Source: Blastocatellia bacterium (GTDB lineage Bacteria; Acidobacteriota; Blastocatellia; HR10). From it: a stretch of 63,256 nt of DNA. Below, one piece after another: positions 27,902 to 37,925 of the stretch (positions within the stretch are counted from its first letter, which is position 1; every line of letters starts with the position of its first letter). The notes beneath the pieces were generated by a model. It was not told the origin of the DNA. It saw only the letters and a program-made list of their open reading frames with translations, and ran no database searches. The translations under genes were made by a program, and so were the position numbers. The DNA lies in contig DATLZR010000179.1 in the NCBI GenBank assembly GCA_035573895.1, forward strand, positions 1 to 63,256. Direction: 5' to 3'.

Positions 27902-27929
27902 TTGACAACAATAGGCCCAGGGCGAAAAT
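27902..27929 (+). promoter_or_regulatory. Possible sigma-70-type promoter for the mini-ORF pair
   Basis: TTGACA (27902-27907), a 16-bp spacer and GAAAAT (27924-27929) lie 30 bp upstream of the strong ribosome-binding site AAAGGAGGTGA and ATG 27960. The -35 is perfect and the -10 has four of six bases. Confidence 0.45.
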
Positions 27930-27959
27930 ATGAAGGAGACAAACCAAAGGAGGTGAGCG

Positions 27960-28055
27960 ATGGTAAGCATAAAGCAGGTGCTCATTACACTTGGCTTGGG
28001 GATTATCCTTACCCTTAATTTTGTTTTGTGGTTCTCACATCCTCTGTGCATATAA
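27960..28055 (+). CDS. 31-residue hydrophobic peptide (possible signal/membrane half of a Cys-rich peptide)
   Basis: ATG 27960 follows an excellent ribosome-binding site (AAAGGAGGTGA, spacing about 4). The product has two lysine-side residues at the N-terminus (MVSIKQ) and then an unbroken hydrophobic stretch (VLITLGLGIILTLNFVLWF), so it is a membrane helix or an uncleaved signal peptide. Its stop TAA overlaps the next ATG (TAATG), so the two frames are translationally coupled. A one-base slip in the T-rich run at 28019-28027 would fuse it to the downstream frame, giving a 69-residue exported Cys-rich peptide. I cannot tell a genuine two-gene pair from a frameshifted single gene. Confidence 0.6.
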   Translation: MVSIKQVLITLGLGIILTLNFVLWFSHPLCI

Positions 28056-28168
28056 TGGCACAGCAAACAGCTACAGGGAGGTGGGTTGACCTTGGTGGCG
28101 GTAAAGGAGCTTGTATCTGCCCAGACTGGAATGGCTGCCTGTGTATAAGACCAGGAGAAGACCAATAG
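28055..28168 (+). CDS. 37-residue CxC...CxC peptide
   Basis: ATG 28055 shares a base with the stop of the preceding hydrophobic mini-ORF (TAATG). The product has four cysteines arranged as CIC-x5-CLC (residues 20-30) after a Gly-rich stretch (VDLGGGKGA) and ends PGEDQ. Its frame is also open upstream to 28019, where a fused reading would place a second hydrophobic segment ending HIMA-QQ, a credible signal-peptidase site. Paired CxC motifs suit metal binding, disulfide formation or post-translational modification. The neighbours (propeller, thioredoxin-fold, ABC permease) recall operons in Bacteroidetes where small Cys-containing NVEALA-type peptides sit beside propeller and TlpA genes. This comparison is by layout, not sequence. 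Function unknown. Confidence 0.55.
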   Translation: MAQQTATGRWVDLGGGKGACICPDWNGCLCIRPGEDQ

Positions 28169-28450
28169 TCACCCAGGCTCCTGGCTCCCGTACCAGAGCA
28201 GGAAGGCACACAGTGCCGGGGGTTCATATAGCTGTCCAAAAAGGTCACGAGTGAAGGTTAACGCGACTCCCCGGGTGCATAATGGGTCAAAGGCCTGAGC
28301 CTGAAGGTGGACCAGTGCAAGGCTTGCGGCTATCCGACTTTTGCTCATCTTGCACCCATTGCGGCGAAGAAGCTGATGACGAAGGATCAGGGTCTTTGCC
28401 ACTTACCTCCTGAAGCGATTTAAAACCTTTGTTGGTCGTTCGGGGAAGCG

Positions 28451-29575
28451 ATGAACCGTGGCCGTCCATTTACGATATATCTTGCCGTTCTCCCTCTCGG
28501 TGCATTTCTACTTCTTCACTCTGGTTCTAAGACAGAGGGGTTCATCAGTCACCCTCATGTCTTCAGCTCAGAAGAACCATCCGTGAGAGGCAATGAGACT
28601 TTCCAAAAAACCTTCAAGCTGGAGAAGGAATACGTGCTGGAGAAGAAAGCGGGTACTGTCAATCAACTCATTGTTGACAAAGAAGGATACCTCTGGATCC
28701 GAGATTGGGACGAGGGGAAGATCGAGAAATATGATCAGAACGGGAAACTCGTGAGCGCCATCGGGAGTGCCGGTCAGGGTCCGGGGCGATTCCTTTTGCT
28801 CGCCGGTTTCGCCGTGGACGAAGAGAGAAGTCAGGTGTTTGCCATTGATTTGCAGCAACATCGAGTGAACCTCTTCGCAGAGGATGGGAGATTCCTCAAT
28901 TCCTGGATTGTTGCCCGGCCCGGCTACATGCCGCAGGCCATTGTGCTTGACAGCAAGCGAGGATTTTACTATCTGGGCGGTTCTCTCCCATTGAAGAAGT
29001 TTGTAAGCGAAGGAGCTCTCCACGTGCACAAGTATAAAATGGGAACGAACCAGTACCTGGGATCTTTTCTCGAAACTGATCGCAGCATTCACGAAAAGAA
29101 TCTCTTCAATTACCTCGTCGTTTCCTCCCTCGACATAGATTCGCTGGGACATGTCTACTGCACTTTAGCACCCGTTTACAAGGTCTTCAAGATAAACACA
29201 CAGCGGCGCGTGATACACTCTTTTGTTGGGAGGCATCGCTTCTATAAAGCTCCTCCCCTTTATCAGTCCGGTTTGAAGCCCCAGGAAATAAAAAAACTAC
29301 GGGAGACGTGGACGCAGACTGATCGAGTCGTCATCGTAGGGGGGATGGCGATTCTGTCACTGGAGATGCACGAACCTTTTCCTTATGGCCTTGAGGTGTT
29401 TGACCTGAACGGGAACGTCCTCAGGACCGATCTCCTCACCAACGGGCGTTTGGTGGGAAAAGACCACGAAGGGAATCTCTATTTTGCGTTAGTCAAGAAC
29501 GGGCGATACGTGATCGCCAAGTACAGGTTAACCCTCGGGGGAATAGGACAGCTCTTGCGTAAGGGAACAAACTAG
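28451..29575 (+). CDS. Exported six-bladed beta-propeller (NHL-like) protein
   Basis: A 374-residue protein with an N-terminal signal peptide or anchor (FTIYLAVLPLGAFLLLHSG). The body shows recurring propeller strands: VNQLIVDKEGYLWIRDWDEGKIEKYDQNGK, GRFLLLAGFAVDEERSQVFAIDLQQHRVNLFAEDG and LDIDSLGHVYCTLAPVYKVFKIN (each seen as separate blades; residues about 68-270). The family is the NHL/6-bladed propeller group common in Bacteroidetes and acidobacteria, usually secreted and of unknown ligand. It is 23 nt upstream of the thioredoxin-fold gene and probably in the same operon. Base composition is clearly AT-richer than the flanking core genes, which hints at acquisition by transfer. Confidence 0.75.
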   Translation: MNRGRPFTIYLAVLPLGAFLLLHSGSKTEGFISHPHVFSSEEPSVRGNETFQKTFKLEKEYVLEKKAGTVNQLIVDKEGYLWIRDWDEGKIEKYDQNGKLVSAIGSAGQGPGRFLLLAGFAVDEERSQVFAIDLQQHRVNLFAEDGRFLNSWIVARPGYMPQAIVLDSKRGFYYLGGSLPLKKFVSEGALHVHKYKMGTNQYLGSFLETDRSIHEKNLFNYLVVSSLDIDSLGHVYCTLAPVYKVFKINTQRRVIHSFVGRHRFYKAPPLYQSGLKPQEIKKLRETWTQTDRVVIVGGMAILSLEMHEPFPYGLEVFDLNGNVLRTDLLTNGRLVGKDHEGNLYFALVKNGRYVIAKYRLTLGGIGQLLRKGTN

Positions 29576-29598
29576 CTTGCGGCTTTCCTGTCGGCTCT

Positions 29599-30162
29599 AT
29601 GAACATGCAATCTCGCCTTCCCTCATTACTCTGCGTCGCTTTGGCTTTTCTTAATCTCTTGCTGCTGATTCGAACCCACCAAATGAAATCTTACCTCCAG
29701 AGCATCCCCTGGCATCCCAGCCCCAAAGGGGTATTCGAACTGCTGGAGAGATCGCGGTCTTGGAAAAGTACACACGGAGCGAATCCCTCTGTACAAACAG
29801 CCTCCCGGTACGTGCTTCTTCTCATCTTTGAACCCACCGACTGCTCGCTCTGCCTGGAAGAGCTCTTCACGCTCAATGAACTTCAAGGACAAGTACCTCG
29901 GCAGAGGCTACAAATCATAGGCGTCGCCTCTCATACTTCCACTGAGGAACTCCGAAAGCTGGCCGATGCCTATGGAGTGAGTTTCCCACTCCTCCTCGAT
30001 GAGTCTTCATCGGCTCGGAGACTTCTGGGGCTGGCGGAGACGCCTTGGAAAGTTCTGGTGGATCGTGAAGATCATCGTATAATTTTTGATATGGGCCCCA
30101 GCCTCTGGGAAGTTGAGAGACAGTTTTTCTCTCTGAGAGTGATGCGGATCGTTAAGGGCTGA
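29599..30162 (+). CDS. Membrane-anchored thioredoxin-fold (TlpA/redoxin-like) protein
   Basis: A 187-residue protein. An N-terminal hydrophobic helix (LLCVALAFLNLLLLI) anchors it, with the rest predicted outside the inner membrane. The thioredoxin fold shows strand LLLIFEPTDC, the CxxC pair in DCSLCLEEL, IIGVASHTSTEELRKLADAYGVSFPLLLDE and the cis-Pro-type TPWKVLVD (segments from residues 70-160). CSLC differs from the usual TlpA WCxPC, so redox properties may be unusual. It lies between the propeller gene and the ABC permease (3-nt gap), so redox handling of an exported cysteine-containing partner, possibly the CxC peptide upstream, is a reasonable guess. Confidence 0.75.
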   Translation: MNMQSRLPSLLCVALAFLNLLLLIRTHQMKSYLQSIPWHPSPKGVFELLERSRSWKSTHGANPSVQTASRYVLLLIFEPTDCSLCLEELFTLNELQGQVPRQRLQIIGVASHTSTEELRKLADAYGVSFPLLLDESSSARRLLGLAETPWKVLVDREDHRIIFDMGPSLWEVERQFFSLRVMRIVKG

Positions 30163-30165
30163 ACT

Positions 30166-31608
30166 ATGCTGAGGCTGCTGGTGAGAAAGGAGGTCCTCGA
30201 AAGCATCCTTTCATTCAAGTTTATCCTCGTCCTTGCGGTAACGATCACCTTGACCCTTCTGAGCATCAGCATGGGTCTGAACGAGTACTGGGCTCAAGTG
30301 AGAGCGCACAGTAACGTGGTGCAATTAAACAGGGATCAACTGGAACGTTCCACTGATTGGCATCAAGTCGGTCGCGCTGGAATCTTTGTCTCAAGGGTTC
30401 CCAGCTCGCCAGCGGTGTTCGCGACAGGAATTTTTGGGATTGCAGGCCAGGTAGCGAGAATCATAGATCGTGACGTGCCGGTAATTGAACGGGGACGCTT
30501 AGCCACCAATTCAGCCTTCATGCTCTTCGGGAGTTGGGATTTTCACTTTATGGTGAAAATCATTTTGAGTCTGGTGGCGTTGCTTTTTGCCTATGACGCC
30601 GTATCCGGGGAGAAAGAGATAGGTACCCTACGGTTGCTCTTAAGCAATCCCCTCCCGCGCAGCCGACTCATTCTCGGAAAGGCCTTGGGCAGATATCTTC
30701 CCCTCCTCACTGCTTTTACCCTCGCATTCATTCTTGGTGTGATATTTCTTTTTCTCCAAAGCGACATAACTTTTACGGTGAATGACCAACTGGGTATTCT
30801 TCTTATTTTTTTGGGCTCCTGCGTTTACCTTGGAGTCTGGTTCACCGTAGGACTTATGGCCTCATGTTTGACGAACCAGTCTCTAGTCTCTTTGCTTTTG
30901 TCATTATTCTTATGGATGTTGCTGATTTTTGCTATTCCCAAGGCGAGCATCTCTGTGGCAAGTTTTCTTCACCCCGTCCCCACCCCTGCCGAACTTGAGG
31001 CAAAGAAGGCCGCGTTGGCCAAGGATATGTATATCAAGCTCATGTTGAGCCAGGAGGAGCCCCTCCGACGCTGGATGAAGCGCCCTCCTGGGGACGTACC
31101 GGCTGAGGAGCTCTATCGAAGGCAGGTGGAATTCGAGAAGGAAGCTGGCCGCTTAAGACAACTGAACGAGGCGGAACATGCTGAGAAGCTCTATAGGCTC
31201 TACGAGCAATATCTGAGCGCACAAAGGGCCTTGGATCGAACAGCGTCTAGGTTGTCGCGTCTTTCTCCCTCTGGTTGCTATGACTATTTCATAACAGGGC
31301 TCGCTGGAACTGGTCCCCGTGATGCGGATTTTTTCCTCGATCAGCTAATCGAATACCAAAAGAGGTTTAGTAGCTTCATCAGTGATATGAAGCTTAAGCA
31401 GGAAATCGTCTATGTCGTCTACGTGCAGGAAGACCCATTCAAGCAAACGCGCCCTGATCTGAGTAAAATTCCTCCGTTTGATTATAAGACGCGGCCCTGG
31501 AGGGAGCGCTGGACATTAGGGATAGCGGATCTTGGCCTGCTGTGCCTGTATATCACGGTGTTGTTCTCCGTGACCTATCTGAGTTTCTTGAAATATGATC
31601 CAAGATGA
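30166..31608 (+). CDS. ABC-2 type transporter permease (DUF3526-like)
   Basis: A 480-residue permease. A first membrane helix (ILVLAVTITLTLLSISMGL) precedes a periplasmic segment, then a block of helices including WDFHFMVKIILSLVALLFAYDAVSGEKEIGTLRLLL, where the GEKEIGTLR motif is typical of ABC-2 permeases that pair with an ABC ATPase. A large second extracytoplasmic region (about 285-445, with a charged coiled-coil-like part) is followed by a last helix ending SFLKYDPR. No ATPase gene is in this cluster; the one at 35184 is the nearest candidate. The stop overlaps the start of a 32-codon mini-ORF (ATGA). Confidence 0.82.
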   Translation: MLRLLVRKEVLESILSFKFILVLAVTITLTLLSISMGLNEYWAQVRAHSNVVQLNRDQLERSTDWHQVGRAGIFVSRVPSSPAVFATGIFGIAGQVARIIDRDVPVIERGRLATNSAFMLFGSWDFHFMVKIILSLVALLFAYDAVSGEKEIGTLRLLLSNPLPRSRLILGKALGRYLPLLTAFTLAFILGVIFLFLQSDITFTVNDQLGILLIFLGSCVYLGVWFTVGLMASCLTNQSLVSLLLSLFLWMLLIFAIPKASISVASFLHPVPTPAELEAKKAALAKDMYIKLMLSQEEPLRRWMKRPPGDVPAEELYRRQVEFEKEAGRLRQLNEAEHAEKLYRLYEQYLSAQRALDRTASRLSRLSPSGCYDYFITGLAGTGPRDADFFLDQLIEYQKRFSSFISDMKLKQEIVYVVYVQEDPFKQTRPDLSKIPPFDYKTRPWRERWTLGIADLGLLCLYITVLFSVTYLSFLKYDPR

Positions 31609-31703
31609 GCTTTGCTCCCCCCGCGCTCGCTTCGTTGGTGTTATGGATGTCGGTCCTTGGGCTTGCCGCCTATTGGCGCTTTGAGCATTACGACCTCAGA
31701 TGA
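31605..31703 (+). CDS. 32-residue micro-ORF equal to the C-terminal tail of an ABC-2 permease
   Basis: ATG 31605 overlaps the preceding permease stop (ATGA), and its own stop TGA 31701-31703 overlaps the next permease start ATG 31700 (ATGA again). The product is one hydrophobic helix followed by YWRFEHYDLR. That ending matches the last helix and tail of the intact permeases in the window (SFLKYDPR, FARYDVR). The simplest reading is a large in-frame deletion of a middle permease gene that kept its first codons and last about 30 codons. It could still be translated as a single-helix membrane peptide. Confidence 0.5.
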   Translation: MSFAPPALASLVLWMSVLGLAAYWRFEHYDLR

Positions 31704-33063
31704 GGACGTTCGGGGTCATCTTTCGCCAAGAGCTTCACCAGGCGCTGACGACGTTCGCTTCTCCCTTCATCCTGGTGACTTTGACCGCGCTCATCCCACC
31801 GAGCGCCCACATCCAGGCGCACTTTTACCAGCATGCCCTCTCGGATTATGCCCTTCGTCAAGCGGCCCATCGGGAGGAAACGACAAGCGGGCGGCTCATC
31901 ATCACATGCCCGGTCCTCCCTCTCCTGCCCCTCTCCAATGGGCTTGTCGGCCGGCTGCCCGACGAGATCGTTCTCCTGCGTGAATCAGCTTCCTGGACAC
32001 CAACCAGCGAGGACCTTCGATTCCTGGACTGGCTCTTCTCCGGGGTTGACTTGATCGTGATCGTGGGTGTGCTGATGACACTGATGGCCTCGCTCATGAC
32101 ATATAACACCGTGACGGGAGAGCGAGAGCAGGGCACGTTAAAGCAGGTCCTGTCTTACTCGCTCCCACGACATACCATCCTGGGAGGTAAGCTGGCAGCA
32201 TCGGTTTTCCTCCTCACACTCAGCGTGTTCTATGCTGTTTCCCATACACCGCTTTGATCATCGCTTTCAGTGGCGGGATGTTTCGTCTCTCCCGGATCGA
32301 GGTTGCGGAAGTTCTGGCTATAGCAGTCATTGGAATGTTGGCCGTAAGCGTCTTCGCACTTCTTGGCCTCGCCATCTCTACTCTCGTGCGATCATCGGCG
32401 ACAGCGCTTGCTCTCTGGCTGACGATCTGGGTATCAGCGGTCCTTCTGTGGCCAAGCTGTGTCGGCTACCTGGCAGCTCCTCTCTGGCCCGTGGAACCCC
32501 GGCAGCTCGCGCGGCGCGAGCTTCTCACCCAGGAGGCGAGGCTTATTCGGAATGAGCTGGCTGATTACAGAAAAAGAGCAGCAGAACTAAGCTTGCAAGG
32601 GGCAGGCGTGAAGCACGCATGGGAACAACACCTGGAGATCAAGCGGCGCTAAAATGAGCGCAAGAGAGAAGAGATAAGGCGCGTGATGGCAGAGCAAGAT
32701 TCACCGTCAACAGACCCGGGGGATGGGGCTCGTTCTCCTCTCTCCTTATGGAGCCCTCCGAATTGCTTCGGACACCATCTGTCGGACCGGAGTGTAGGCC
32801 CATGACCTGTTCCTGACGGAAGTCGCTCGATACGAAAGAGAAGAATTCACCCAAAAAGTTTTCAGGCCCTCGCCCAGCAACAACCTGGAGACATGGAAGG
32901 AAAACCTGCTGCCTCGGTCTCGTTCCGACCGTTCAGTCTTTCACCGCCCTCTCTGCGGACCAGACTGACAACCGTGGCCGCGCCCGTCAGCGTCCTCATC
33001 CTCGAAATGGCCATCTTGTGGCTGATTAGCCTCTTTCGATTTCACCGCTACGACGTGCGGTAA
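31700..33063 (+). pseudogene. Decayed ABC-2 permease, frameshifted
   Basis: The first frame (31700-32257) encodes the permease N-terminus, including MASLMTYNTVTGEREQGTLK, and then stops. A -1 shift near 32243 continues it as FPYTALIIAFSGGMF into the frame 32254-32652 (membrane helices, then EPRQLARRELLTQEARLIRNE from the extracytoplasmic loop). After the stop at 32650 further fragments of the loop are visible (FLTEVARYEREEF around 32808), and the terminal helix with tail LFRFHRYDVR ends at TAA 33061-33063. At least two frameshifts and a stop separate the pieces, so a functional protein is unlikely. A sequencing error could explain one break but not all. Confidence 0.75.
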
Positions 33064-33416: not shown

Positions 33417-35000
33417 ATGGAAGCTGTGAGAACGCACGCACGCTCTCGATTCAGCGGCGGGCATGTCCGTTTGGTGGGACAGCTCTGGTTGCTTCTCTCT
33501 TGCCTTGGGGTTCTCGTTTGGGGCCAGCAGGCTCGGATTAGCGACGAGCAGCGGCGTTTTCTTGAGGTGCGCCGTCGGCAAATCGAACTTCAGGCTGCCC
33601 GCCAGGAGGTGAAACGTCTGGAAGAGTTGTTCGGTCAAGGACTCGTTCCCAAAACCCAGCTCGATCGAGCCCGCACGGAACTGGAGAGAGCACAACTGAG
33701 CTATCAGGAAGCCGTGCTGTCGCTTCTGGCTCTGGAGCCGCGCCTGTCGGTTCGTCAGGCGGTGAAGTCCCAAACACCCGATGGGCGGAAGTTCGTTCGA
33801 CTGACGATCGCTAACCTCACCCCCACGTTCGATGATTCGCAATTCCGGCTGCTTCAGAATTTCGAGGGAGCCGATCCCATCCCCGATGAACTTCGCCGGC
33901 GCGATGTGCAGGATATTTTCGTCTCGCTCAAAGACCCTGGCGAGGCGCCGACGGGCTCGCTGACGGGAACCATTGCCGAGCGCAGCGTGCGCGGCACGAC
34001 CATTTCCCTGCCCTACGAGATTCACATCCCCAAACTCGCCTACGGGGAGGAGAAGACCCTGGAGTTCCAGTTGCTGCGGGATGTGGCCAGCGTCATCGTC
34101 TCGACGAGTTACAAGGGCCAGACCCTCGAACAGGTGATTCAGCTACAACAGGCCGAAGGCGAGCGCACCGTCACGGTCAGTTCCACCCAGTTTTCCCAGG
34201 AAGCTGATTTAGGCGGCCAGGCGACCTACGACCTGCGACTGGAGCGCTCGACCGTTGACGTGCGCAGTTTTGAACTGAAGGCGGTGAATCTCCCGCGCCA
34301 GATCACCTATAGCTTCATTGATCCCAACACGCAAGCGCGGCTGAGCCAGATCAACTTCCCGGCCGGAGTGACCGAGCAACGGCTGGGGTTGCGGCTGTTT
34401 TTGCCCGAGCGGGCCGATGAGCAGGTGCGCATTGACGAGCCGCTGGAGTTCTGGGCGCTGGCGATGGACGAGCAGCAGGCGCAACGGTTCCAGCAAGAGC
34501 GCATCTATTCACCGGCAGAGATCGAGCAGAGTCGCGCCGGGTGCGTCCGTCTGGTTGTCATCCCTCGTGGCGTTGGTCGCATTGAGGTCTCCGCCGTCAG
34601 CCTTTTTTCTGAGATTCATCCCGGCGAGAAGGTCGAGACGACCATTACCATTCGCAACACGGGCACGCGACGGCTGGACAATATCAAGCTCACGACCGAA
34701 TACCCGCTTAACTGGCGGGTCGAACTCCAGCCCGACATCGTCCCGGCGCTGGAGATCAACCGGGAGACGTCCATCACGCTCACGATCATCCCGCCCCCGG
34801 ACGTCCCCGTCGGAGATTACGAGGTGCGGCTGAAGACCGAAAGCTATGCCTACGGACGGCGTGTTCCCTCGGAAGACAAAATCTACCGCGTCAGCGTCAA
34901 AGCGCAGGCCAATATCTGGGGGACGGCGGGACTGGTGGGCGGGTTGTTGCTTCTGGTCATCGGGATCGTCGTCTTCGGCATCAGGCTCACCCGACGATGA
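33417..35000 (+). CDS. Exported membrane-anchored protein with C-terminal NEW3/Ig-like domain
   Basis: A 527-residue protein. It has a signal peptide (LVGQLWLLLSCLGVLVWG, ending about residue 38), then a charged helical stretch (about 42-105) resembling the coiled-coil hairpins of membrane-fusion proteins (LEELFGQGLVPKTQLDRA). Several beta-sandwich regions follow. Near the C-terminus a NEW3-like domain (ETTITIRNTGTRRLDNIKL, ...PPDVPVGDYEVRL) precedes one membrane helix (AGLVGGLLLLVIGIVVFGI) and a basic tail RLTRR. The bulk is therefore predicted in the periplasm with a cytoplasmic tail. It is followed by an ABC ATPase and permease, so a role as an accessory or adaptor of that transporter is likely. 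ATG 33417 has GGTGGA upstream. Confidence 0.78.
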   Translation: MEAVRTHARSRFSGGHVRLVGQLWLLLSCLGVLVWGQQARISDEQRRFLEVRRRQIELQAARQEVKRLEELFGQGLVPKTQLDRARTELERAQLSYQEAVLSLLALEPRLSVRQAVKSQTPDGRKFVRLTIANLTPTFDDSQFRLLQNFEGADPIPDELRRRDVQDIFVSLKDPGEAPTGSLTGTIAERSVRGTTISLPYEIHIPKLAYGEEKTLEFQLLRDVASVIVSTSYKGQTLEQVIQLQQAEGERTVTVSSTQFSQEADLGGQATYDLRLERSTVDVRSFELKAVNLPRQITYSFIDPNTQARLSQINFPAGVTEQRLGLRLFLPERADEQVRIDEPLEFWALAMDEQQAQRFQQERIYSPAEIEQSRAGCVRLVVIPRGVGRIEVSAVSLFSEIHPGEKVETTITIRNTGTRRLDNIKLTTEYPLNWRVELQPDIVPALEINRETSITLTIIPPPDVPVGDYEVRLKTESYAYGRRVPSEDKIYRVSVKAQANIWGTAGLVGGLLLLVIGIVVFGIRLTRR

Positions 35001-35183
35001 AAACGAAGAGGCGAGACGATCGGCGCGAATCCGCCTTCATCCGCGGTGAATGTCGGAGCAGTGGTTCATGACGCTCAAGCGACGCCCACACACGATGAAA
35101 AACCTGAAAGCGCACGCTCTCAGCGGGCCCAAGCGAGCGCGCCGGAGGCGCGCGCTCCCCAGCGATTTCCTCAGGAGGTGACG

Positions 35184-35924
35184 ATGATCGAAGCCATCAA
35201 TCTGACCAAGCGCTATGAAGACGGAGTACTGGCGCTCGATGCGCTGAACCTCAAGGTCAATCCCGGAGAGATTTACTGCCTGCTGGGCGCCAACGGCGCG
35301 GGCAAGACAACCACGATCAATCTCTTTCTCAACTTCATCGAGCCGACCGCCGGGCAGGCCTTCATCAACGGCATTGACGTGACGCGCGATCCCCTGGAGG
35401 CGAAAAAGTATGTCGCCTACTTGCCGGAGAACGTCATGCTCTACGGCAACTTCACGGCGCGACAGAATCTGGATTTCTTCGCCAAGCTCGGTGGCAAACG
35501 GAATCTGAAGAAGGACGACTACTACCGGGTGATGCGGGAGGTGGGCTTGCCCGAGCGAGCCTTCGAGCAGCGGGTCAAAGAGTTCTCCAAAGGAATGCGG
35601 CAGAAGCTCGGCATCGCCATCTGCATGATCAAGGATGCGCCGGCGCTGCTTCTGGATGAGCCGACGGCCGGACTCGATCCGGCTTCGGCAGCCGAATTCC
35701 TGGAGACGCTCGTGGAGTTGCGCCGGAGGGGGAAGGCCATCCTCATGTCCACGCACGACATCTTCCGGGCCAAGGAGATCGCCGACCGCGTAGGGATCAT
35801 GAAAGAAGGCCGCAAGGTCATGGAGCGCACTCGCGAAGAACTCGAATACGAAAACCTCGAACGCCTCTACCTCGATTACATGCGCGGCGGCATCGGACCG
35901 AGGGAGGAGCAAGAAAAGCGTTGA
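35184..35924 (+). CDS. ABC transporter ATP-binding protein
   Basis: A 246-residue ABC-2-type ATPase. The start is ATG 35184 behind CAGGAGGTG. Walker A is GANGAGKTT, the signature is a divergent EFSKGMRQKLGIA (SKGMRQ), Walker B is ALLLDEPTAGLD, and the switch His is in MSTHDI. It lies 183 bp downstream of the NEW3 gene and 471 bp upstream of a permease on the same strand. With the permease at 36396 it probably forms an exporter. It may also serve the permease at 30166, whose cluster lacks an ATPase. Confidence 0.92.
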   Translation: MIEAINLTKRYEDGVLALDALNLKVNPGEIYCLLGANGAGKTTTINLFLNFIEPTAGQAFINGIDVTRDPLEAKKYVAYLPENVMLYGNFTARQNLDFFAKLGGKRNLKKDDYYRVMREVGLPERAFEQRVKEFSKGMRQKLGIAICMIKDAPALLLDEPTAGLDPASAAEFLETLVELRRRGKAILMSTHDIFRAKEIADRVGIMKEGRKVMERTREELEYENLERLYLDYMRGGIGPREEQEKR

Positions 35925-36159
35925 GCGTTCCAATGGAAGGTGCGGCGACGCAGAGGCACAAGAGGCGGTCTCGCAAATTCCCTTCTGGAACTTCGCAAGC
36001 GCTATGAGGAGACTCAAGGAACACGCTCGTCGTGGCCTCGATGGGGTTGTCCACGCAGAGGCGGAAGGCCAAGCGCCGAGAGGATGTTTCTGTCCAAAGA
36101 CACTACCGTCATCAGCCTTTTCCGTCGAGTTCCAGGGCGAGTTTGCTGTGGGCCGGTTG

Positions 36160-36325
36160 GGCTCAGAGGCGGGGAGTATCTCGCCCCTTACCGAGAACCC
36201 TCCGAATCCAGGCGGGACCGGCAAGACGCACATCCAGCTCCCTCTGGATGGGCCTGCGTGCGCGGCTCGGGGAGCGCCTCTTGACAGAACTGCCCACCTT
36301 TTTTGAGATGGCTTCCAGTCACCGG
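36160..36325 (+). pseudogene. Possible remnant of an IstB-like transposition helper
   Basis: In the 471-bp gap 35925-36395 one frame reads NPPNPGGTGKTHIQLPL, like the P-loop region of IS21-family IstB. Adjacent frames continue as WACVRG and LLTELPTFFEMA, which also fit that family's next segments. The pieces are out of frame with one another and short. The remainder of the gap contains no recognisable gene. Confidence 0.25.
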
Positions 36326-36395
36326 TTATTGGTCCGTTGCAAGGAACAAATGACCAGGGACTCGCGAGAAATGACTGTAATGGGGAGAGTGACCT

Positions 36396-37925
36396 ATGGC
36401 CAGGACCTACGCACCCGCTCGTTCTCAGTTCGGCGCTGCCACTGCGCCCAGCGGTAGGCGCGTCGTGAAGACCATCGCCCTGCGGGAACTGACGGAGCAA
36501 CTGACGAGCTTGCGGTTTTTGATCATCACGCTGCTCCTGGTCGGACTCACACCACTGGCCGTGTATGTGGGAGCGCGGGACTATACCAACCGGCTTGAGG
36601 ATTACAACCGACTGGTAGCGGAGCAGCAGGAACTGATAGCAGGACCTGTCGGCAAACAGGTTCGAGGGATTGACGAACTATTTACATCGCAGAATGAACT
36701 CGCTGTGTTGCGGACGCTTCGACCGCCTGAGCCGCTGAGCGTGCTGGTTCGAGGCCTTGACGGTGTTCTCCCTGAGTACTGGGACTTCTCCCCCGCGGGG
36801 CTCATAGTGGGGCCGCCACCTTCGCGGGCGCACCGGCTGGCTGACCTGCTGGGCCAGCTCGACCTGGAATTTTTGGTCCGTGTCGCGCTGGGTCTGTTAG
36901 CCATTTCACTGGCGTTCGACGCGGTAGCCGGGGAGAAAGAGCTGGGCACACTGCGCGTTGCCCTCAGCCAGCCGATCTCACGTTCAGCATTTCTAGCCGG
37001 CAAGTTGGCCGGTGGTTCAATCACGCTCCTGGTTCCGCTCATCACTGCGTTCCTGCTGGCGCTGCTCAGCGCCCAGCTTTTTGACCTGAATCTGTTGGCT
37101 GCTGACACCCTGAAGAAGGTCGCGCTCATTGCCGCTACATCGAGCACCTATTTGGTTTGCTTCTATGCGCTGGGTCTCGTCGTTTCCTCTCTGGCTACGA
37201 GCCAGAAAACATCGCTGGTGGTGCTTCTGGTCATTTGGGTGGTAGCTGTACTGACTGTTCCTCCGCTGTCCACTCTTGTGGCTCAGGCAATCTCGCCAGT
37301 ACCGCCCGGGCATGCTGTCCAGGCGAAGAAGCGAGCGCTGGATGAAGACATCCGCCGCCAGGCAGAACGGGCCATGGGTGATATTTTCAGAGAGGTGACG
37401 GGACAGGACCGTATGGTGGGCACCAGTCTGTATCTGCAACACAAAGAAGCTATTGACCGTCAAATCGCACCGATCGTCACCAACTATGTCAGTAAGCGGC
37501 GTCAGCTTCTTGGCGAACTAGAGCGTGATGCCGAGCGGCGAACCACTCAGCAAAATGAAATAGCCCGAGCGATCATGGCGCTCAGTCCGGCGGCGGTGTT
37601 TGCGGGCGCCGCAGCAGATCTGGGCGGGACTGGCGATACTTACGCCAAGGCCTGGCTTGAAGCTGTGCGTCAGTACCAGAGCCGATTGAACGCGGCGCTC
37701 TTTGATGATCCGCCAGTGGTGCAGATGAGATTGAGGAACATGAGCATGGCGCTCGAACGGCTTCAACCACCGCCGCTGACGCGCCTGCCAGGCTCCGTTT
37801 CGCCCCGACGCAACACGACTGCGGCTATCGAGCGGGCGCTCCCGGCGTTGGGCTCGCTGGCACTGTACACTGGCCTTTTTATCGTTGGCGGATTTGTCGC
37901 CTTCGCGCGCTACGACGTGAGGTGA
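36396..37925 (+). CDS. ABC-2 type transporter permease (DUF3526-like)
   Basis: A 509-residue permease related in layout to that at 30166. The N-terminal helix (FLIITLLLVGLTPLAVYVG) is followed by a periplasmic loop, then helices with the ABC-2 motif AFDAVAGEKELGTLRVALSQ and several more membrane spans (IAATSSTYLVCFYALGLVVS, LVVLLVIWVVAVLTVPPL). A large charged extracytoplasmic region spans about 300-470, and the last helix ends FARYDVR. The start is ATG 36396 with GGGGAG upstream. It probably partners the ATPase at 35184 and the NEW3 protein. The substrate is unknown; family members are linked to export of peptides, proteins or copper (NosY-type), none of which can be chosen here. Confidence 0.83.
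   Translation: MARTYAPARSQFGAATAPSGRRVVKTIALRELTEQLTSLRFLIITLLLVGLTPLAVYVGARDYTNRLEDYNRLVAEQQELIAGPVGKQVRGIDELFTSQNELAVLRTLRPPEPLSVLVRGLDGVLPEYWDFSPAGLIVGPPPSRAHRLADLLGQLDLEFLVRVALGLLAISLAFDAVAGEKELGTLRVALSQPISRSAFLAGKLAGGSITLLVPLITAFLLALLSAQLFDLNLLAADTLKKVALIAATSSTYLVCFYALGLVVSSLATSQKTSLVVLLVIWVVAVLTVPPLSTLVAQAISPVPPGHAVQAKKRALDEDIRRQAERAMGDIFREVTGQDRMVGTSLYLQHKEAIDRQIAPIVTNYVSKRRQLLGELERDAERRTTQQNEIARAIMALSPAAVFAGAAADLGGTGDTYAKAWLEAVRQYQSRLNAALFDDPPVVQMRLRNMSMALERLQPPPLTRLPGSVSPRRNTTAAIERALPALGSLALYTGLFIVGGFVAFARYDVR

Follow-up and report, generated by a model that had tools for sequence, protein, structure and literature searches.

A probably split gene for a small cysteine peptide heads a propeller, thioredoxin, and ABC-2 permease operon in a Blastocatellia bacterium

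Small cysteine peptides escape annotation, and a frameshifted peptide gene can mimic a pair of coupled mini-ORFs. On contig DATLZR010000179.1 of a Blastocatellia bacterium, in the stretch of 63,256 nucleotides analyzed here (the window), a hydrophobic mini-ORF overlaps a cysteine-rich one ahead of genes for a beta-propeller, a thioredoxin-fold protein, and an ABC-2 permease. Does this locus encode two coupled peptides, as a sequence-only reading had proposed, or one, and do similar sets of genes occur in other bacteria?

The locus in the window

Both mini-ORFs, the strong ribosome-binding site, the TAATG overlap, the propeller, the thioredoxin-fold protein, and the ABC-2 permease were confirmed, all on the same strand (Table 1). 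Mini-ORF 1 (31 codons) encodes the hydrophobic product MVSIKQVLITLGLGIILTLNFVLWFSHPLCI, and mini-ORF 2 (37 codons), whose start lies inside the TAATG overlap, encodes MAQQTATGRWVDLGGGKGACICPDWNGCLCIRPGEDQ, in which the motif CIC-x5-CLC reads CIC-PDWNG-CLC. Inspection of the sequence upstream of the mini-ORF 2 ATG revealed no Shine-Dalgarno sequence, and the frame is open upstream of that ATG, back to the stop codon that precedes position 28019. Codon usage in the upstream half is coding-like; that of mini-ORF 2 does not look coding. Searched at the DNA level, the region of the mini-ORFs had no relatives above chance. The pattern CxC-x4..9-CxC occurred once in the six frames of the window, against 4 occurrences in a 400-kb background, and the stricter CxCP-x3..6-CxC occurred once in the window and 0 times in the background; thus, chance is an unlikely source of the cysteine motif that precedes the propeller. 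A further small ORF, MDQCKACGYPTFAHLAPIAAKKLMTKDQGLCHLPPEAI (28307 to 28423), lies between the peptide gene and the propeller.

Table 1. Features of the peptide locus and the genes that follow it
Feature	Position	Strand	Basis
Promoter-like TTGACA-16-GAAAAT	27902..27929	+	Consensus scan only, 1 found vs 0.7 expected; weak
Shine-Dalgarno sequence GGAGGTGA of the precursor gene	27949..27956	+	Sequence
Mini-ORF 1: N-terminal half of the precursor with the signal peptide (first ~20 codons); the remainder is out of frame	27960..28055	+	Alignment with the N terminus of the L040 and L041 precursors
Stretch of 37 nt open in both frames and containing two T4 runs; the halves are joined by a -1 shift within it	28019..28055	+	Upstream stop of the mini-ORF 2 frame at 28016-28018
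Mini-ORF 2: cysteine core, C-terminal half of the precursor	28055..28168	+	Motif and location agree with L040, L041, and L059
6-bladed NHL-type beta-propeller, N-terminal signal or anchor helix	28451..29575	+	PF17170, AlphaFold2, Foldseek, full-length homologues in L040 and L041
Membrane-anchored ResA/TlpA-like thioredoxin-fold protein; DCSLC at 29839-29853	29599..30162	+	PF00578; family with invariant CxxC
ABC-2 permease, intact	30166..31608	+	PF12679 (ABC2_membrane_2), E=1e-27
Possible C-terminal remnant of another ABC-2 permease, ending in LGLAAYWRFEHYDLR and a stop	31611..31703	+	Weak tblastn match to permease C termini
Second ABC-2 permease, broken: frame change at ~32200-32250 and later stops	31700..33063	+	Alignment of homologous permeases

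The propeller scored 33.3 bits against PF17170 (curated cut-off, 22.9) and belongs to that family, and its AlphaFold2 model (pLDDT 85) retrieved NHL 6-bladed propellers in Foldseek. The thioredoxin-fold protein, which contains DCSLC, likewise belongs to PF00578 (AhpC-TSA; 40.5 bits against a cut-off of 26); its best matches in a profile search were ResA structures, and its model (pLDDT 88) has one N-terminal membrane helix with DCSLC after it. The first ABC-2 permease shows 36% identity to each of the copies at the two related loci L040 and L041 described below. In the second permease, homologues align in frame 3 up to ~32200 and in frame 2 from ~32250; elsewhere in the window, most genes are intact. 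Farther along the same strand (33417 to 37925) lie genes for a NEW3-domain protein, an ABC ATPase (35046 to 35924), and a further ABC-2 permease (36396 to 37925), which may belong to the same transporter.

Homologous operons and the single precursor

In a protein search of relatives, two genomes of the same order gave homologues along the full length of the propeller (E=6e-38 and 4e-33; loci L040 and L041), and at both loci the same thioredoxin and then a permease lie downstream. Each operon is preceded by one ORF of 66 to 69 codons that encodes a signal peptide and CQC-x5-CFC; the ORF upstream of the propeller in L040 reads MKKLGMSVATFLLVALNLLVLLTPLEVQASTAPFPIPIYIPGTVVSVLPLICQCPGDGSCFCGLVF, and its relative is present in L041. 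Between these two loci, dS was 0.45 and dN was 0.10 in the frame of the peptide ORF (dN/dS, 0.23), versus dN/dS values of 0.41 and 2.3 in the two other frames, as expected of a peptide under purifying selection. Conservation beside propeller, TlpA, and ABC genes and constraint on coding, both of which the sequence-only reading had proposed to look for, were thus found in intact peptide genes at homologous operons.

When the window is read with one -1 shift in the 37-nt overlap of its two frames, it yields a precursor of 69 amino acids on the plan of these relatives, with a hydrophobic N terminus containing LNF-VLVVL (against LNF-LVVL in the N termini of the L040 and L041 precursors) and CICPDWNGCLC near the end. 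Furthermore, the peptide at L059, a more distant relative, can be aligned with the window core in the frame of mini-ORF 2, and this alignment starts before the mini-ORF 2 ATG. The two mini-ORFs are most likely one precursor gene of ~69 codons (27960 to 28168), split by a one-base frame change within the doubly open stretch. Whole-peptide similarity is weak: a frameshift-aware alignment of the whole-length window peptide with those of L040 and L041 was not significant by itself (rank about 17 to 22 of 420), and a direct search with the L040 peptide did not report the window locus, so that the single-gene conclusion is drawn from synteny, motif, size, and plan. The earlier idea of a small exported cysteine peptide with partners therefore holds as to kind, since the operon is conserved in relatives, whereas its coupled mini-ORFs are replaced by one frame-changed gene, and the ABC-2 permease is only a candidate export partner. 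Modules of the window's order alone are accompanied by ABC-2 permeases, none being found beside modules of other classes, which makes these permeases unlikely as the core exporter.

The split itself may be read in other ways. Translational coupling of two real peptides, one of them small and in the membrane, the other a CxC peptide of the cytosol, would explain the TAATG overlap and the strong Shine-Dalgarno sequence of mini-ORF 1, but we regard it as very unlikely, since the intact relatives join signal peptide and CxC core in one ORF, the L059 peptide aligns also with the open part of the mini-ORF 2 frame well ahead of the ATG, and mini-ORF 2, without a Shine-Dalgarno sequence, would not be exported by itself. 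A base-call or assembly error, or bypass of the frame change by slippage on a T run, would leave the window gene functional. The two T4 runs at the site, the coding-like codon usage of the upstream half, and the intact propeller, thioredoxin, and first permease all suit this possibility, which is a real one; we nevertheless doubt it, because several lesions in the second permease suggest real decay and because the relatives need no shift. A programmed -1 frameshift was rejected, as inspection found no canonical slippery heptamer in frame and the relatives do without a shift. Decay of the locus is thus the simpler reading. Since the frame change would cut the cysteine core off from export, the window copy is probably a damaged, defective member of its module, unless the base call is wrong. 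As a whole, the best explanation, and one we consider fairly probable, is a split single peptide gene that heads a propeller, thioredoxin, and ABC-2 operon, its exported peptide acting by a mechanism of the kind proposed below.

Recurrence of peptides, propellers, and thioredoxins

We searched for secreted cysteine peptides of 45 to 150 amino acids with a basic N terminus, a hydrophobic core, and at least 4 later cysteines, a definition that gave 5 matches in 400 kb of Blastocatellia DNA away from propellers. Such peptides lie beside propellers at L040, L041, L059 (two peptides), L083, L088, L095, and other loci, and at L082 under relaxed limits. They were present at 10 of 16 propellers with a thioredoxin neighbor versus 5 of 41 others (Fisher p=3e-4), the misses including the window (frameshift), L082 (just below the threshold), and L154 (where a transposase gene lies next to the thioredoxin). 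In four further genomes, the corresponding figures were 10 of 12 and 11 of 50 (p=1.4e-4); the two surveys share some loci and are therefore kept separate here. The cysteine number was even in all 21 module peptides listed, 20 of which are acidic, a parity that depends on grouping, as odd-cysteine ORFs near propellers (7 cysteines in L049 and L050, 9 in L042 and L044) were left out. All 21 combine this parity with a hydrophobic, signal-type N terminus, the window peptide doing so only in its joined reading. In a second survey (regions from G217 and G271 and two more genomes), 22 of 23 peptides near propellers had an even number (p=3e-6), some peptides being in both parity sets. Module peptides are thus small, of the secreted type, and usually acidic, with 4 to 12 cysteines, and the 6-bladed propellers next to them are preferentially ones that have a CxxC thioredoxin as neighbor.

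A phylum-level search found peptide and propeller together, mostly with thioredoxin, in distant relatives (L150, L151, L152, L153, L156, and L157), and the module also occurs in one Ignavibacteria genome (L053). Homology between peptides of distant genomes does occur: L095 and L204 matched at E=7e-12 when a small set was compared. The number of different peptides reaches about ten or more in some genomes; in the 2.5-Mb genomes G217 and G271 (L204 to L243), there are dozens of NHL-type propeller matches, many of them with no peptide nearby. None of the families in Pfam and NCBIfam covers any of ten module peptides, and a literature search found no paper on such a module, nor on NVEALA or DUF5128. 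Similar and undescribed sets of peptide, propeller, and thioredoxin are present in several Acidobacteriota lineages. That such a set recurs, and is expanded in some little-known bacteria, suggests that an envelope peptide system has so far escaped study, and it offers a concrete means of finding and testing this system.

Several variants were seen among these loci. In L083 (3395 to 5430), a thioredoxin domain and a propeller are apparently fused in one ORF, and the C-terminal part of the propeller seems to be placed in the next ORF, in another frame. In several module peptides (those of the window, L040, L041, L083, and L082, and L150a), the hydrophobic core of the signal sequence contains an asparagine. 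Another secreted peptide, of 114 to 130 amino acids with seven cysteines, stands beside another propeller in genomes G008 and G009 (L049, 1330 to 1722; L050, 1492 to 1836), where no thioredoxin was seen.

Possible roles and likeness to known systems

In the intact relatives, a Sec-type signal would export the small even-cysteine peptide and be removed in the envelope, where the membrane-anchored CxxC thioredoxin of the operon would form or correct its disulfides and the secreted or anchored propeller would bind the peptide encoded beside it as its specific partner. The Sec signal, the even cysteines, and the co-encoded membrane CxxC thioredoxin together suggest that the peptide resides in the envelope, carries disulfide bonds, and has a redox factor of its own, and the presence of different peptides beside different propellers in one genome suggests cognate pairs. 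The ABC-2 permeases of the window's order may move a product or ligand or protect the cell, and they would be accessory to the module in this one lineage. An acidic peptide would not be expected to act as a classical cationic antimicrobial. More tentatively, and with somewhat less confidence than an even chance would carry, we propose a diversified system that spans the phylum Acidobacteriota, in which each secreted peptide, hypervariable and stapled by disulfides, would have its own propeller as dedicated binding partner, whether receptor, immunity protein, or chaperone, and a membrane thioredoxin dedicated to its maturation; single 2.5-Mb genomes would contain about ten or more different peptides.

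The NVEALA (PF14055) layout of Bacteroidales likewise places a small exported peptide beside a PF17170 6-bladed propeller. The resemblance, which the sequence-only reading had confined to layout, indeed goes no further: ten module peptides gave no match to PF14055 at E<=10, Bacteroides ihuae alone among the controls exceeded the cut-off, and 0 of 198 genomes around the Ignavibacteria relative did so. SOQ1 and NHLRC2, which appeared among the profile matches, have a thioredoxin-like domain fused to an NHL propeller, but they are eukaryotic and lack the small secreted peptide. GldF and the lantibiotic-immunity permeases belong to the same ABC-2 family as the window permease, which nevertheless falls below the curated subfamily cut-offs, with no ATPase directly in the peptide operon.

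Other roles for the peptide may be considered besides that of a disulfide-bonded partner of the propeller. Methylamine dehydrogenase (MauA, MauB, MauD, and MauE) also combines a propeller, a small disulfide-rich partner, and a thioredoxin, and MauD and MauE are known to give redox assistance to its disulfide-rich small subunit. Propeller and peptide might thus be subunits of a comparable periplasmic enzyme, in keeping with MauE beside two modules (L053, by Pfam, and L157, judged from sequence), although none was seen in the window operon. We find this unlikely, because the peptides vary greatly in size, sequence, and cysteine number, unlike a catalytic subunit, and the propeller is of the 6-bladed NHL type; neither peptide nor propeller matched the small subunit or heavy chain in Pfam or NCBIfam. 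TlpA-type proteins keep copper chaperones reduced, and the peptides could similarly bind metal through their CxC pairs, which many of them have, with the ResA/TlpA-type thioredoxin keeping them reduced. This is quite unlikely, as CxC pairs are lacking in several module peptides, disulfides account more simply for the even parity, and no metal genes were seen in the window operon. A radical SAM/SPASM maturase and six CxC-rich precursors upstream of the homologous operon in G008 might suggest that a radical SAM enzyme modifies the peptide as a RiPP core, but this is hardly credible: the module peptides have Sec signals and no RiPP leader, and neither the window's genome nor G009, where the same operon occurs, gave a match to the G008 maturase at E<=1e-20, so that the radical SAM cluster is a neighbor in G008. 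A disulfide-bonded peptide paired with its propeller is the reading we retain.

The G008 cluster deserves description for its own sake (L244, 1164 to 4211). Its maturase, for which the best NCBIfam model is a Clo7bot-type one, scored below the cut-off, is followed by six tandem ORFs of ~51 to 54 amino acids and then by a peptide-type ABC exporter. The six precursors match no NCBIfam family and share an M[DNK]W[IL][IV]EP-like leader and CxCxGGLVVCxC-like cores, and judging from these features, the cluster is likely a new RiPP cluster.
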